Source: Woeseiaceae bacterium
Lineage (GTDB): Bacteria; Pseudomonadota; Gammaproteobacteria; Steroidobacterales; Woeseiaceae
Direction of reading: 5' to 3'
DNA length: 64,000 bases
NCBI GenBank assembly: GCA_021773135.1
Contig: JAJFKP010000056.1
Coordinates: 1-64,000, forward strand
Shown here: in pieces, positions 15,529 to 20,002 of the stretch
How the letters are laid out: each line of letters opens with the position of its first letter
Numbering within the stretch: position 1 is the stretch's first letter
Position numbers and translations under genes: made by a program
The notes under the pieces: model-generated
What the model was told of the DNA's origin: nothing
What the model saw: only the letters and a program-made list of their open reading frames with translations
Database searches by the model: none

Positions 15529-15709
15529 TTAACCAGCTTTTCATCGACGCCATGCAAGAAAACCCAACAAAATCAAGGCCTAAAACTAGGCAAGACTTTC
15601 ATAAGTAACTATCGTCCAAGGACATGTCTTATCGCAAAACTTGGGTCTTTTTTCCCATGTTGTCCATTTCGTTGACGAATATCATTCACGGTCAATATAT
15701 TTCGCGTCC

Positions 15710-16552
15710 ATGCAAGACACCATCCAGCAACAAATCCTTAGTGCGCTTCTGACAATGCTGCGTCCTCTGGCGAGGGCGCTCCTTCGCGCGGGTATTGGGC
15801 ATCGCGAATTCAATGAAATTTCAAAGTCTGCATTCGTGGATGTCGCAACGAAAGACTATGGACTGAGAGGAAGACCAACGAATATCTCTCGAGTCGCGGT
15901 CATGACCGGACTGACGAGGAAAGAAGTACGACGACTACGCAACAAGAATGAGGCTGGTGAAGAGACGGATATTAGCCGGAGGACGCCGATGGGAGTCGTC
16001 CTCCATCGTTGGTATACAGAGGCTGATTTTATCAGTTCGGATGGTTCTCCAAGGGTTCTTCAGTTTGATGGAGATGCAAATTCATTCTCTGATTTGGTTG
16101 GCCGATACGGTGGTGATATTCCGCCTGGCGCAATGAGGACGGAATTGAAACGGATTGGGGCTGTTTCTGAAGCAAGTGACGGACAGCTGACTGTGTTAAA
16201 ACGTAACGTTTCGAAGCCCGGCGTGCATGAAAAGCTGATTGATGGCTTATCTATAGTCATATACCCAGCCGTATTAGCGCTGGCCAATAATACTGATGCC
16301 AAAAATGCAGATGCGACTTGGGTAATGAGGACCGCTGCTACATCCCGAATTCGAGCGGGCGATGTTCCACGAATTCGACGAATTACGTCTGACCGATTGT
16401 CAGAGTTCGTAGAATCTGTGGATGATCTTTTTGCCGCATATGAAACTCTTCATGACGACGACATGTCGGAATCCAGCGATCAGTCAGTCGGAATTGGTGT
16501 ATTTTATTTTGAGGAGGACAAAGACGAATCGCACTTTTATAAGAAGGCGTAG
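15710..16552 (+). CDS. DUF6502-family protein, paralogue A
   Basis: This is a 280-residue protein from ATG 15710 (MQDTIQQQILSALLTMLRP). An ATG at 15641 would add 23 residues that match nothing in its paralogue. It aligns along its length with the protein at 16963: LRPLARALLRAGIGHREFNEISKSAFVDVA, then RVAVMTGLTRKEVRRL, which looks like a helix-turn-helix. I assign DUF6502 from memory of the family N-terminus; its function is unknown. The region is lower in GC than the neighbouring housekeeping genes. It may be a transcriptional regulator. Confidence 0.7.
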   Translation: MQDTIQQQILSALLTMLRPLARALLRAGIGHREFNEISKSAFVDVATKDYGLRGRPTNISRVAVMTGLTRKEVRRLRNKNEAGEETDISRRTPMGVVLHRWYTEADFISSDGSPRVLQFDGDANSFSDLVGRYGGDIPPGAMRTELKRIGAVSEASDGQLTVLKRNVSKPGVHEKLIDGLSIVIYPAVLALANNTDAKNADATWVMRTAATSRIRAGDVPRIRRITSDRLSEFVESVDDLFAAYETLHDDDMSESSDQSVGIGVFYFEEDKDESHFYKKA

Positions 16553-16962: not shown

Positions 16963-17871
16963 ATGAGCGATTCAATCAAAGCAGCGCTACTGAGTGCATA
17001 TCAAGTTCTTCTCGGTCCACTCGTAAGAATATTGCTGCGACAGGGAATTTCATACGCTGAATTTTCAGAAGTGGCGAAGTCTGTCTATGTGGAAGTCGCT
17101 TTAAAAGATTTCAAAGTAGCAGGTCGAAAAGCAACTCGGACTCGGGTAGCTGTAATGACTGGGCTGACGAGAAAAGAAGTAAAACGAGTCATCGACGAGG
17201 CGTTAAAGGATCAATACGAACCTAACGCAAAGTTCAGTCGTCTCGGACGAGTACTTGTTGGCTGGCATACGGATACAGATTTTACCGGACCTTATGGTTT
17301 GCCATTGGAGCTTGAATATGAGGCAACTAAAGCCGGTGAGCCGACGTTCTCAGAATTGGTTAAGCGTCATAGCGGCGACATGTCGCCTCGATCAATTCTC
17401 GACGAGTTGATTCGTGTTGGGGCTGTAAGAGAAACGGATGTGGGTTGGTATCGAGTTTTAAGGCGAGACTACATCACAGACGCAACGGGTAGAGACACAT
17501 TTGAAAGAACTGGATTCATAGTAAGAAATTTTATTAATACCGTTGACTTCAATATGACGAAGTCAGCACCAGGAAAAGGAAGATTCGAACGGCACGTTTT
17601 TCCAGCAGATGGTATTCGCGCCAAAGATTTTGAGAAGTTTGACGAATATTTGCGAGATCGTTGTCAAGCACTACTTGAAGAGTTGGATAACTGGCTAACG
17701 AAACTACCGATTCCTGACCCAAAGAAAGGTGACGAAGTTATTCATACAGGAGTAGGCATGTATCACTACATGACTCATGTAGCTGACGACAGAAACCTGA
17801 AAGAAGTGTTGCGTGATGAAGGACTAATTCGGAATGGTCATTTGCAGGAAGCTGATGAACTAAACGAATGA
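16963..17871 (+). CDS. DUF6502-family protein, paralogue B
   Basis: This is a 302-residue protein. It shares with paralogue A the N-terminal LLGPLVRILLRQGISYAEFSEVAKSVYVEVA block and the exact core RVAVMTGLTRKEV, a likely recognition helix of a helix-turn-helix. The middle (GRVLVGWHTDTDFTGPYGLP...LVKRHSGDMSPRSILDELIRVGAV) also aligns, while the C-terminal thirds have diverged. Function unknown. An exact 8+8 inverted repeat lies 21 bp before the start. It ends about 50 bp before the octapeptide-repeat gene on the same strand, so the two may be co-transcribed. Confidence 0.75.
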   Translation: MSDSIKAALLSAYQVLLGPLVRILLRQGISYAEFSEVAKSVYVEVALKDFKVAGRKATRTRVAVMTGLTRKEVKRVIDEALKDQYEPNAKFSRLGRVLVGWHTDTDFTGPYGLPLELEYEATKAGEPTFSELVKRHSGDMSPRSILDELIRVGAVRETDVGWYRVLRRDYITDATGRDTFERTGFIVRNFINTVDFNMTKSAPGKGRFERHVFPADGIRAKDFEKFDEYLRDRCQALLEELDNWLTKLPIPDPKKGDEVIHTGVGMYHYMTHVADDRNLKEVLRDEGLIRNGHLQEADELNE

Positions 17872-17925
17872 AGATTAAACCGAAAATATAGATTTTTGTA
17901 TTCGAGACGTTGGAGAAGTCGAGAA

Positions 17926-18954
17926 ATGAGCGAGCGAAGAGCGACTATGAATAGTCGTCGGTCAGCAGTGGCCGGCGTCGCAATCGCATTGGTTTCGACA
18001 GGCGCTAGTGGTGCTATTACCGGTAGTGACGGTAGAGCAATCACCGGCAGCGATGTTCGAGCCATAACCGGTAGTGACGGCAGGGCGATCACGGGCAGCG
18101 ATGTTCGAGCCATAACCGGTAGTGACGGCAGAGCGATCACGGGCAGCGATGTTCGAGCGATCACCGGCAGTGATGGCAGAGCGATCACGGGTAGTGACGG
18201 CAGGGCGATCACCGGCAGTGATGGCAGAGCGATCACGGGCAGCGATGTTCGAGCAATCACCGGCAGTGACGGCAGAGCGATCACGGGCAGCGATGTTCGC
18301 GCGATCACCGGCAGTGATGGCAGGGCGATCACGGGCAGCGATGTTCGAGCAATCACCGGCAGTGATGGCAGGGCGATCACGGGCAGCGATGTTCGCGCAA
18401 TCACCGGCAGTGATGGCAGGGCGATCACGGGCAGCGATGTTCGCGCGATCACCGGCAGTGATGCCAGAGCGATCACGGGCAGCGATGTTCGATCGATCAC
18501 CGGCAGCGATGTTCGAGCGATCACCGGCAGTGACGGCAGGGCAATTACTGGCAGCGATGGCCGCCTACTACTTGTTGGCCAGGTCAATTACGTCGGCGAG
18601 GACTTTGTATCAGTACTTGGTCAAACCGTTCTCATGGACCGGTCAAGCGCACGTGGTATCCGGGTCGGGGCATCGGTCGCCGTTTACGGCTCGATTGATA
18701 TTGATACAGGGAGCATAGCTGGTGCATCCGTGGTTTCGCGCTCAAACGTCGACGGCGTGTCCTACCTGACAGGTGTGGTTGATTCCGTTGATACCGTGAA
18801 AGGTACTGCAGTAGTCAGCGGCATGAACGTTGACTACACGTCTCTGCTTGCTACCGGGTCAGCACCGGCAGTTGGTGACATGGTTGCAGTGACCGGACGT
18901 GAGTATAAAGGGGCAGGACTGCTGATAGCCGATCCGCAATTACGGGTGGATTAG
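17926..18954 (+). CDS. Secreted-looking octapeptide-repeat protein with DUF5666-like C-terminal domain
   Basis: This is a 342-residue protein from ATG 17926, chosen because GGAGA lies nine bases upstream; an in-frame ATG 30 bp earlier lacks this. Residues 1-29 look like a signal peptide (RRSAVAGVAIALVSTGASG). Residues 30-213 are 23 uninterrupted octapeptides of consensus AITGSD[G/V]R with no length variation. Residues 214-342 look like two small beta-barrel modules (VGQVNYVGEDFVSVLGQ..., TGVVDSVDTVKGTAVVSG...), resembling DUF5666. No catalytic motif is visible. It follows two DUF6502 genes. Role unknown; an extracellular or periplasmic structural repeat is the simplest reading. Confidence 0.8.
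   Translation: MSERRATMNSRRSAVAGVAIALVSTGASGAITGSDGRAITGSDVRAITGSDGRAITGSDVRAITGSDGRAITGSDVRAITGSDGRAITGSDGRAITGSDGRAITGSDVRAITGSDGRAITGSDVRAITGSDGRAITGSDVRAITGSDGRAITGSDVRAITGSDGRAITGSDVRAITGSDARAITGSDVRSITGSDVRAITGSDGRAITGSDGRLLLVGQVNYVGEDFVSVLGQTVLMDRSSARGIRVGASVAVYGSIDIDTGSIAGASVVSRSNVDGVSYLTGVVDSVDTVKGTAVVSGMNVDYTSLLATGSAPAVGDMVAVTGREYKGAGLLIADPQLRVD
18013..18564 (+). repeat. In-frame 24-bp tandem repeat, 23 copies, with 48-bp higher-order period
   Basis: Each 24-bp unit encodes AITGSDxR. Units with Gly at position 7 mostly use AGA/AGG for Arg and AGT for Ser. Units with Val use CGA/CGC for Arg and AGC for Ser. The two types alternate over most of the array, so growth was by 48-bp dimers. 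Breaks in alternation are at units 7-9 and 19-23. Most units contain GATC (16 sites in 552 bp). Confidence 0.95.
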
Positions 18955-18973: not shown

Positions 18974-18999
18974 AAAAAAGTCGGCGTCCTTGCCGACTT
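18974..18999 (-). terminator. Rho-independent terminator, minus strand
   Basis: AAGTCGGC (18978-18985) and GCCGACTT (18992-18999) form the stem; on the minus strand it is followed by six T. The plus strand has no T-tract after the stem, so it does not serve the octapeptide gene. The only minus-strand gene upstream, the parvulin, has its own terminator at 19140-19162. That implies a separate short transcript in between. Confidence 0.75.
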
Positions 19000-19068
19000 A
19001 GGTCTCGTATCACACTAGGGAGATGCGAGGGTTGGAGAAGCCGTCCCTGAGCGATTAGGAACGACTCG
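18974..19068 (-). ncRNA. Candidate CRP-dependent small RNA
   Basis: This is a predicted RNA of about 95 nt between two minus-strand terminators, with no gene of its own to explain the second. Its -10 is TATAGT (19075-19080). A perfect TGTGA-N6-TCACA site is centred 41.5 bp before the predicted start, the class II CRP position. The middle has pyrimidine-rich, Shine-Dalgarno-complementary stretches (CTTCTCC, TCTCCC) and the 3' end is a canonical terminator. This resembles CRP-controlled base-pairing RNAs such as CyaR or Spot 42 in design, not in sequence. No homologue is recognised. Confidence 0.5.
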
Positions 19069-19074
19069 CGAGCA

Positions 19075-19117
19075 ACTATAGGAAGATCGTGAACTCAATG
19101 CTGTGACCGGTCTCACA
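19075..19117 (-). promoter_or_regulatory. CRP/Vfr-type site and -10 element
   Basis: TGTGA (19102-19106), six bases, TCACA (19113-19117): both half-sites are perfect. TATAGT on the minus strand (19075-19080) gives a start near 19068, 41.5 bp from the site centre. No good -35 is visible, as is normal for class II activation. Confidence 0.55.
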
Positions 19118-19137: not shown

Positions 19138-19164
19138 AAAGGGCGCCAATTGGCGCCCTTATTG
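19138..19164 (-). terminator. Terminator of the parvulin gene
   Basis: GGGCGCCAATTGGCGCCC (about 19141-19158, extended by AA/TT) is a perfect palindrome followed on the minus strand by TTTTGTTTTG. It lies about 40 bp after the stop of the minus-strand parvulin gene. Confidence 0.75.
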
Positions 19165-19198: not shown

Positions 19199-20002
19199 TT
19201 ATTCTTCTGATTTCGCCAACGATTCGATGTGCGCCTGAAACAAATCGTTAGCCACCTTTTGTCGCAGCTCTTCGACGGAACTGTCGAAAGGCGGCGGACT
19301 GGATTCTCTTGAATCCTCTCGCAGGATTACGTGCCAGCCAAATTGTGTTTGCACAGGCTCTTTTGTGAATTGACCGTCTTCGAGCTCAGCAACTGCGGCG
19401 GAGAATTCGGCAACCATCTGTGTCGGCGAAAACCAATCCAGGTCGCCGCCATTCGGTCCGGTAGGACCGGTAGATTTTTCTTTTGCCAGCTCTTCGAAAT
19501 TGCCACCATCATTTAGTTCGGCGATTACAAGTTCTGCCTCGCCCTGCGTTTCAACAAGAATGTGTCGTGCTTTGAAATCCAGGGGTGGGTAGAGCGCGAG
19601 CTGTGACTGGTATTCCGCTTGTAGTTGTTCATCGCTCACTTCGACTTTTTCAAAATAGTCGGCAGCGGCAGCCTGGAAAATGATGCTTTGTTTCTGCAAT
19701 TCGATCTGCGCGGCCACAACTGGGTCGTCGGCAAACTCGCTCGAAGACTCGTCGGTTGCCAATGCGTAAATATTGCGTAATTCAGTCATCAGGAACTCGC
19801 GTTGCTCCGGGGTCGCTGTCGCGCCCTGACCGCCGAGTCTGCTTTGGAAATACAGATCAACGACCGCACTGTCGACGTCGACACCGTTGATGGTGAAAAT
19901 GGTCTCGGCACCAGCCTGGCTGGCCGAAAATGCTCCTGCAGCCAGCAACGCGATCATAGGAATGCGCCTGCAACGCCTATAGGAACGGTTCAAAAAGTCC
20001 AT
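19199..20002 (-). CDS. Parvulin-type peptidyl-prolyl cis-trans isomerase, exported
   Basis: This is a 267-residue protein with a signal peptide (basic RSYRRCRRIP, then MIALLAAGAFSASQAGA, cleavage near AGA-ET). A SurA/PrsA-like N-terminal helical region follows, then a PpiC/rotamase domain at about 140-235 (FKARHILVET, GGDLDWFSPTQMVAEFSAAV, TQFGWHVILRED). It is expected to help fold proteins in the periplasm. It has no lipobox. The gene is the promoter-distal member of a minus-strand group with yciB, yciI and bolA, and ends at a strong palindromic terminator. Confidence 0.9.
   Translation of the reverse strand: MDFLNRSYRRCRRIPMIALLAAGAFSASQAGAETIFTINGVDVDSAVVDLYFQSRLGGQGATATPEQREFLMTELRNIYALATDESSSEFADDPVVAAQIELQKQSIIFQAAAADYFEKVEVSDEQLQAEYQSQLALYPPLDFKARHILVETQGEAELVIAELNDGGNFEELAKEKSTGPTGPNGGDLDWFSPTQMVAEFSAAVAELEDGQFTKEPVQTQFGWHVILREDSRESSPPPFDSSVEELRQKVANDLFQAHIESLAKSEE

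Follow-up and report, generated by a model that had tools for sequence, protein, structure and literature searches.

A predicted small RNA gene convergent with an octapeptide-repeat gene

Within the window (the whole 64,000-nucleotide stretch of DNA that was analysed), a candidate small RNA gene lies between ppiC and a gene for an octapeptide-repeat protein. It runs tail-to-tail with the latter, its 3′ end falling about 20 nt from the octapeptide gene's stop codon. The features of the locus are as follows.

17909–17918, plus strand: target site 1, GTTGGAGAAG, overlapping the Shine-Dalgarno sequence of the octapeptide gene mRNA
17926–18954, plus strand: octapeptide-repeat protein gene (ITGSDGRA units and variants), the convergent neighbour and predicted target
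17927–17933, plus strand: target site 2, TGAGCGA, overlapping the start codon, ATGAGCGA
18974–19068, minus strand: small RNA of about 95 nt with three hairpins, start and end predicted
18978–18999, minus strand: GC-rich intrinsic terminator hairpin, followed by a T-run to 18974
19031–19040, minus strand: unpaired linker CUUCUCCAAC, proposed seed for the target Shine-Dalgarno region; the conserved block runs on to 19027
19048–19054, minus strand: hairpin-1 loop UCGCUCA, proposed from conservation, accessibility and pairing as seed for the target start-codon region
19075–19080, minus strand: −10 element TATAGT, 21 nt after TCACA
19102–19117, minus strand: perfect CRP operator TGTGA-GACCGG-TCACA, centred at −41.5, a class II position
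19139–19160, minus strand: terminator of the ppiC gene, between ppiC (19199–20002) and the small RNA gene

The upstream ppiC gene, whose product contains a Rotamase domain, has its own terminator at 19160–19139, and the small RNA thus constitutes a separate unit. A preliminary description of this DNA had placed here an RNA of about 95 nt with a clean terminator, preceded by a perfect TGTGA-N6-TCACA site 41.5 bp from the start predicted by TATAGT. These coordinates hold (site at 19117–19102, −10 element at 19080–19075, start at 19068), and the terminator, a hairpin at 18999–18978 plus T-run, is distinct from that of ppiC. The RNA folds better than 200 of 200 shuffled sequences (z −3.3), forming three hairpins and a CU-rich unpaired linker. 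Over the 72 of 79 copies (home copy and relatives) that carry both exact motifs, the mean unpaired probability is 0.73 for the linker and 0.96 for the loop (lowest loop value 0.00).

Several established categories were considered for the locus. A protein-coding role was rejected, as the RNA contains no ATG, two overlapping GTGs and no notable reading frame. A search of Rfam returned no family above the gathering threshold at the locus and only three tRNAs in the window. The best sub-threshold match at the locus, MicX, scored 23.8 against 75 bits and includes the ppiC terminator; scores likewise fell below the gathering threshold for CyaR, which we take to be Rfam RF00112, and for other families. 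Unlike a cis-antisense RNA, the RNA has no overlap with the opposite-strand coding region of its target, and its predicted target is a 342-aa repeat protein rather than the short hydrophobic toxic peptide of a type I toxin-antitoxin system. Among the matches listed from open PubMed Central, none describes a small RNA from Woeseia or other Woeseiaceae. Together with the comparisons below, this constitutes strong sequence evidence and indicates a real, uncatalogued small RNA whose gene is under predicted CRP control.

A CRP site at constant distance from the −10 element

Even when one mismatch is tolerated, the 64-kb window contains no CRP-site match other than the operator, TGTGAGACCGGTCACA. 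Chance alone would produce 1.7 one-mismatch matches per window, so that a single site has no significance by itself. Since one perfect site could well arise by chance over 64 kb, we examined conservation, and it is from comparison that the locus gains significance: the CRP site, the 21-nt spacing, the three hairpins and the single-stranded core are conserved among 79 copies.

Upstream DNA is available for 78 of these 79 copies. A perfect TGTGA-N6-TCACA is found in 71/78 and a site with one mismatch in the other 7/78, while the N6 spacers of the perfect sites take 44 different forms. Exactly 21 nt separate TCACA from the best −10 hexamer in 73/78 copies, ties between hexamers having been settled in favour of 21. 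Relative to the start at 19068, which is itself predicted from the −10 element, the site is centred at −41.5 and covers the −35 region, as in a class II promoter. Class II CRP promoters do not require a −35 hexamer.

The home genome encodes the CRP gene presupposed by this arrangement, an orthologue on G000:C43 (E 1.5e-78 to a solved CRP). In the segment that we take to be the recognition helix it reads CSREMAGR against CSRETVGR in the solved protein, and the segment PDAMTHPDGM, presumably activating region 1, is identical. A Crp-family match and an hfq gene were detected in 5/5 genomes searched, with the home genome among the hfq carriers. From these features we infer that CRP-cAMP activates the small RNA.

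Distribution and structural conservation

A DNA search identified the RNA in 24/60 genomes and 10/30 genera, home genome included, and the 24 copies were aligned (RNAalifold) to build covariance model R1. Searches of more than 40 genomes ran with stricter filters, at the cost of weak matches, and incomplete genomes were numerous; within these bounds R1 recovered the RNA in 69/107 Woeseiaceae genomes and 9/12 genera (home included), and in 79/396 genomes sampled from the order (home included), which adds 10 genomes in three other families. In a class sample of 369 genomes, just two gave a match, the home genome and another of the Woeseiaceae. Three core-pattern matches outside the lineage (Acidovorax, Rokuibacteriota and Bacteroidetes) had no covariance-model match and were taken as chance.

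The final alignment, A3, comprises 79 copies, one per genome with home included, of which 78 are distinct and four are shortened by contig ends. Double compensatory changes occur at 16/24 pairs and are present in all three hairpins. Standard pairs fill 98.0% of paired cells, compared to a shuffled mean of 92.4% and 23–49% for slid structures, and the covariation score of 0.262 was reached by 0/500 shuffles, with the qualification that A3 was fitted to the structure, which favours pairing scores, and that the shuffles leave relatedness in. In alignment rows that extend as far as helix 3, the terminator, this helix is 100% paired. The linker core CTCCAAC[CT]CTC is intact in 67/69 family copies and mutated only in G002 and G005. 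In one relative (L097, genome G067, around 1290–1330), the RNA's own terminator hairpin has been replaced by a different hairpin (GGCCACCGAAGTGGCC), possibly through a deletion that brought a neighbouring terminator alongside.

The preliminary description had tied its case to conservation of the CRP site and terminator in close relatives and had proposed a covariance search of related genomes; conservation of both elements and the family-wide distribution of the RNA now speak in its favour. The CU-rich, Shine-Dalgarno-complementary stretches that it had described as exposed prove to be among the most conserved unpaired parts. Comparative genomics, in the form of a conserved promoter and a conserved structure, thus supports its suggestion of a CRP-activated small RNA.

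The octapeptide-repeat protein

The neighbouring gene encodes 342 aa in the window, and the corresponding open frames in relatives span approximately 200–540 codons. By eye the N-terminus resembles a signal peptide, and the protein is presumably exported. The C-terminal region is DUF5666-like, with a match of 23.4 bits that lies under the 27-bit cut-off. A DUF4774 match over the repeats (27.5 against a cut-off of 25) is probably a repeat artefact. A single-sequence fold model has a mean pLDDT of 52, with beta-strand repeats mostly at 65–78, and found no PDB match at E<=0.001. DUF5666 is named in at least four papers of open PubMed Central, among the matches listed, and DUF6502, the domain of the upstream genes, is named in no paper of that collection.

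The repeat unit encoded at 18031–18570 (plus strand) varies among relatives (L004–L023, L067–L108), taking forms such as ITGSDGRA, ISGGDVxG, IDGTDALG and ITSGGSRA, and the C-terminal region remains recognisable while the units change. The relatives' metagenome contigs (L005, L006, L007, L097–L100, L113 and others) often stop inside the repeat gene and so often show it only in part. Upstream of the octapeptide gene, two DUF6502 paralogues occupy 15641–16552 and 16963–17871 (plus strand). In family f9, too, the repeat gene has a DUF6502 gene in front of it, which suggests that DUF6502 and the repeat gene form a conserved module.

Association of the RNA with the repeat gene

A scripted motif search identified a convergent open reading frame with the repeat protein's C-terminal motif beside the RNA in 55/69 family copies. 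Among the other 14, seven have less than 100 nt beyond the RNA, five (L012, L070, L101, L103 and L256) have a repeat open reading frame, and in G002 and G005 other genes adjoin the RNA. We further searched 28 chosen genomes with a profile of the C-terminal region (A2), which was built from proteins beside the RNA and is biased toward co-occurrence for that reason. Matches above 60 bits were obtained in 8/28 genomes, 8/8 of them carrying the RNA, and in 0/15 RNA-less genomes; six RNA-less genomes gave weaker matches of 28–47 bits in other proteins. Five genomes (G002, G005, G040, G051 and G145) contain the RNA and no A2 match above 60 bits. The linker is mutated in G002, and both linker and loop are mutated in G005.

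In family f9 the RNA and the repeat gene share a strand, with the repeat gene about 1.4 kb further downstream, where it overlaps the end of the DUF6502 gene, and the encoded protein has its repeats (SIGGGDSPL) at the C-terminus instead. This gene lacks GTTGGAG, and inspection by eye revealed only a short possible match, GGGGGTT...TGAGC. The RNA and the repeat gene are thus an old, linked pair, f9 included.

Complementarity to the start of the repeat gene at two sites

Beyond the claims of the preliminary description, the CU-rich stretches and the hairpin loop match the start of the neighbouring octapeptide gene. Its start region, GTTGGAGAAG-TCGAGAA-ATGAGCGA (17909–17933), is complementary to linker plus loop, with linker CUUCUCCAACCCUC and loop UCGCUCA matching the target sites in antiparallel order.

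The register of this match differs between genera. Leaving aside genus g11 and G016, eight genomes are readable; in all eight the gene begins with ATGAGCGA, and the linker site, 8–10 bp long in seven genomes and 7 bp in G013, overlaps the Shine-Dalgarno region. In g11, the largest genus, the linker site is the GAGGGTTGGAG block where it is long (13 bp in G097) and mostly ends 19–28 nt upstream of the ATG (74 nt in G097), while the loop matches a separate Shine-Dalgarno, AGGAGCGA, downstream of the linker site. Since g11 keeps the linker complementarity away from the Shine-Dalgarno, the linker site is not merely a Shine-Dalgarno sequence.

We scored the two sites against 500 dinucleotide shuffles of the UTRs in 31 genomes, comprising adjacent repeat genes with a readable start plus G036 and G091. 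The score reached p<0.05 in 28/31 genomes, in which a conserved unpaired seed accordingly faces a conserved complementary target, and p<0.01 in 25/31, in a test that leaves relatedness among genomes in. For G036 and G091 the start is on a different contig and was located by searching for the motif; excluding both gives 26/29. GTTGGAG is present in 26/31 targets versus 1.3% of shuffles, GAGCGA in 29/31 versus 12.7%, and both motifs in 25/31 versus 0.2%. Three of the 31 readable targets (G016, G071 and G090) showed no significant two-site pairing. A first run had returned p<0.05 in 24/26 genomes; of five starts added to it, G030, G129 and G073 were positive and G090 and G071 negative, and the start of G121 was redefined for the 31-genome test after inspection of its sequence.

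The target was also the best among 115-nt windows of the same loci in 22/26 genomes, and in the home window 0/2195 other windows were as good. In the remaining 4/26 (G016, G116, G121 and G079), background windows matched or outdid the target. Whole-RNA duplex energy was dropped as an unspecific measure: it gave p<0.05 against shuffles in 15/26 genomes, including G016, which has no seed match, and its positives also included a G013 row scored against another genome's UTR. G020 has an extra GTTGGAG...GAGCGA pair (C1:424812-424831), which lies about 100 nt further upstream than the main site of its repeat gene.

Candidate targets elsewhere in the genome

The strongest competing explanation is that the CRP-activated RNA governs a broad regulon in which the neighbour is one target and the anti-Shine-Dalgarno linker acts on many mRNAs. 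We consider this somewhat unlikely. It draws on family f9, which keeps the core of the RNA although its repeat gene lacks GTTGGAG, and on the home genome, where GTTGGAGA-N(3-14)-ATG has 31 matches versus 10 for the reversed control. Besides the octapeptide gene, these matches fall at a plausible gene start in at least L029, L037, L053, L057 and the C58 gene. Apart from the C58 gene, the matches of the Shine-Dalgarno type in the home genome, named by eye, include a short-chain dehydrogenase-like gene, a lipoprotein-like gene, a small L037 protein and the L029 open reading frame.

Longer matches speak against a broad regulon. Across 16 genomes, the 11-mer GAGGGTTGGAG has 26 matches, 15 in the RNA gene, 6 in a repeat-gene UTR and 5 elsewhere; the control has 6 matches. 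Across 15 whole genomes, all previously seen to carry the motif, GTTGGAG-N(3-33)-GAGCGA has 83 matches: 15 RNA genes, 15 target UTRs and 53 others, which were inspected in part and show no excess over the 53 of the reversed-pattern control. One inspected extra match, at a contig end in G019 (L308, G019:C95), belongs to a second ITGSD-repeat gene, an unlinked paralogue that has the same two-site start and runs off the contig. The best additional home candidate encodes a 100-aa membrane protein on contig C58 (GTTGGAGAAGTACCAATGAGCGA), with a homologue in 5/21 genomes, home included. Its site is absent in L313, the one relative in which the start was read, and the C58 protein is accordingly a weak candidate for a second target.

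A model for regulation of the repeat protein by carbon status

The RNA's conservation and structure, its CRP site with the constant spacing, and the retained complementarity are facts of the sequences themselves. We propose that they reflect a stand-alone, CRP-cAMP-activated small RNA of the Woeseiaceae whose main target is the convergent gene beside it, which it would repress, and assign this reading a probability of roughly 80%. When cAMP is high, on poor carbon, CRP bound at −41.5 would recruit RNA polymerase in class II fashion, and an RNA of about 95 nt ending at the intrinsic terminator would be made. Its loop and linker CUUCUCCAACCCUC, presumably with the help of Hfq, would pair with the start-codon/Shine-Dalgarno region of the octapeptide mRNA and the sequence just upstream and thereby block 30S loading. 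The repeat protein would thus be produced on plentiful carbon and switched off on poor carbon.

The RNA may further belong to a dedicated CRP-small RNA-target module, devoted essentially to one neighbour gene and its paralogues, with a two-point loop-plus-linker contact that, from genus to genus, has shifted its register between start codon and Shine-Dalgarno, and with seeds that are lost along with the gene. We regard the odds for this narrower version as even.

The same contacts could in principle serve activation, with the RNA opening an inhibitory structure in, or shielding, the neighbour's mRNA. In g11 the linker site is upstream of the Shine-Dalgarno, a position compatible with such a role, and CyaR is described in PMC9002310 as able to activate a target. 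The home sites, however, overlap both Shine-Dalgarno and start codon, and the g11 loop still covers the Shine-Dalgarno; we therefore judge activation improbable and infer repression.

It is far less probable still that the likeness between the RNA's complement and the UTR is the remnant of an inverted duplication, with unselected pairing. Read on one strand, 17909–17933 and 19031–19054 do contain the two blocks in identical order, but by eye the pairing blocks alone are shared, and they are kept across genera while the UTR around them changes and the mRNA register moves. The CTCCAAC core, intact in 67/69 copies, is moreover mutated precisely in G002 and G005, the two family genomes where the RNA occurs without a match to the repeat-protein profile. 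The idea that the locus holds no small RNA at all, just a terminator/attenuator tail or antisense stretch of neighbouring genes, has its position downstream of ppiC and tail-to-tail with an octapeptide transcript that may read through it in its favour, yet is scarcely credible against its own conserved CRP promoter, its own terminator, the separate ppiC terminator and compensatory changes in three hairpins.

The repressor model, if true, would put a fast-changing repeat protein under the influence of carbon status in a group, the Woeseiaceae, that is widespread in marine sediment. The evidence from sequence for this new RNA family is unusually complete, covering promoter, structure, terminator and target, and natural variants make the two-site small RNA-mRNA contact directly testable.

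Relation to known small RNAs

In IstR/TisB and OhsC/ShoB, an RNA gene adjoins the gene that it regulates, and the RNA pairs with the 5′ region of that gene's mRNA and silences a short toxic peptide. The Woeseiaceae RNA similarly adjoins its predicted target and is complementary to the target's 5′ region, rather than antisense to the coding region. It differs in its predicted target, a protein of about 200–540 aa, and in the CRP site of its promoter.

CyaR is of similar size to the Woeseiaceae RNA and also has an unpaired Shine-Dalgarno-complementary sequence and an intrinsic terminator. In E. coli and Salmonella, CyaR is controlled by CRP-cAMP, as stated in PMC9002310, and such control is predicted for the Woeseiaceae RNA as well. 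Unlike CyaR, the Woeseiaceae RNA falls below every Rfam threshold, belongs to another lineage and is predicted to act mainly on the convergent gene beside it, through contacts at two sites. Small RNA genes of Yersinia pseudotuberculosis are also preceded by TGTGA-N6-TCACA, with direct CRP binding for some, according to PMC4376681. The Woeseiaceae system is distinguished from these by a CRP site held at constant distance from the −10 element over dozens of species and by a predicted target. Judged from sequence comparison, the Woeseiaceae RNA thus most likely works like CyaR-type CRP-dependent small RNAs, yet represents a separate family.
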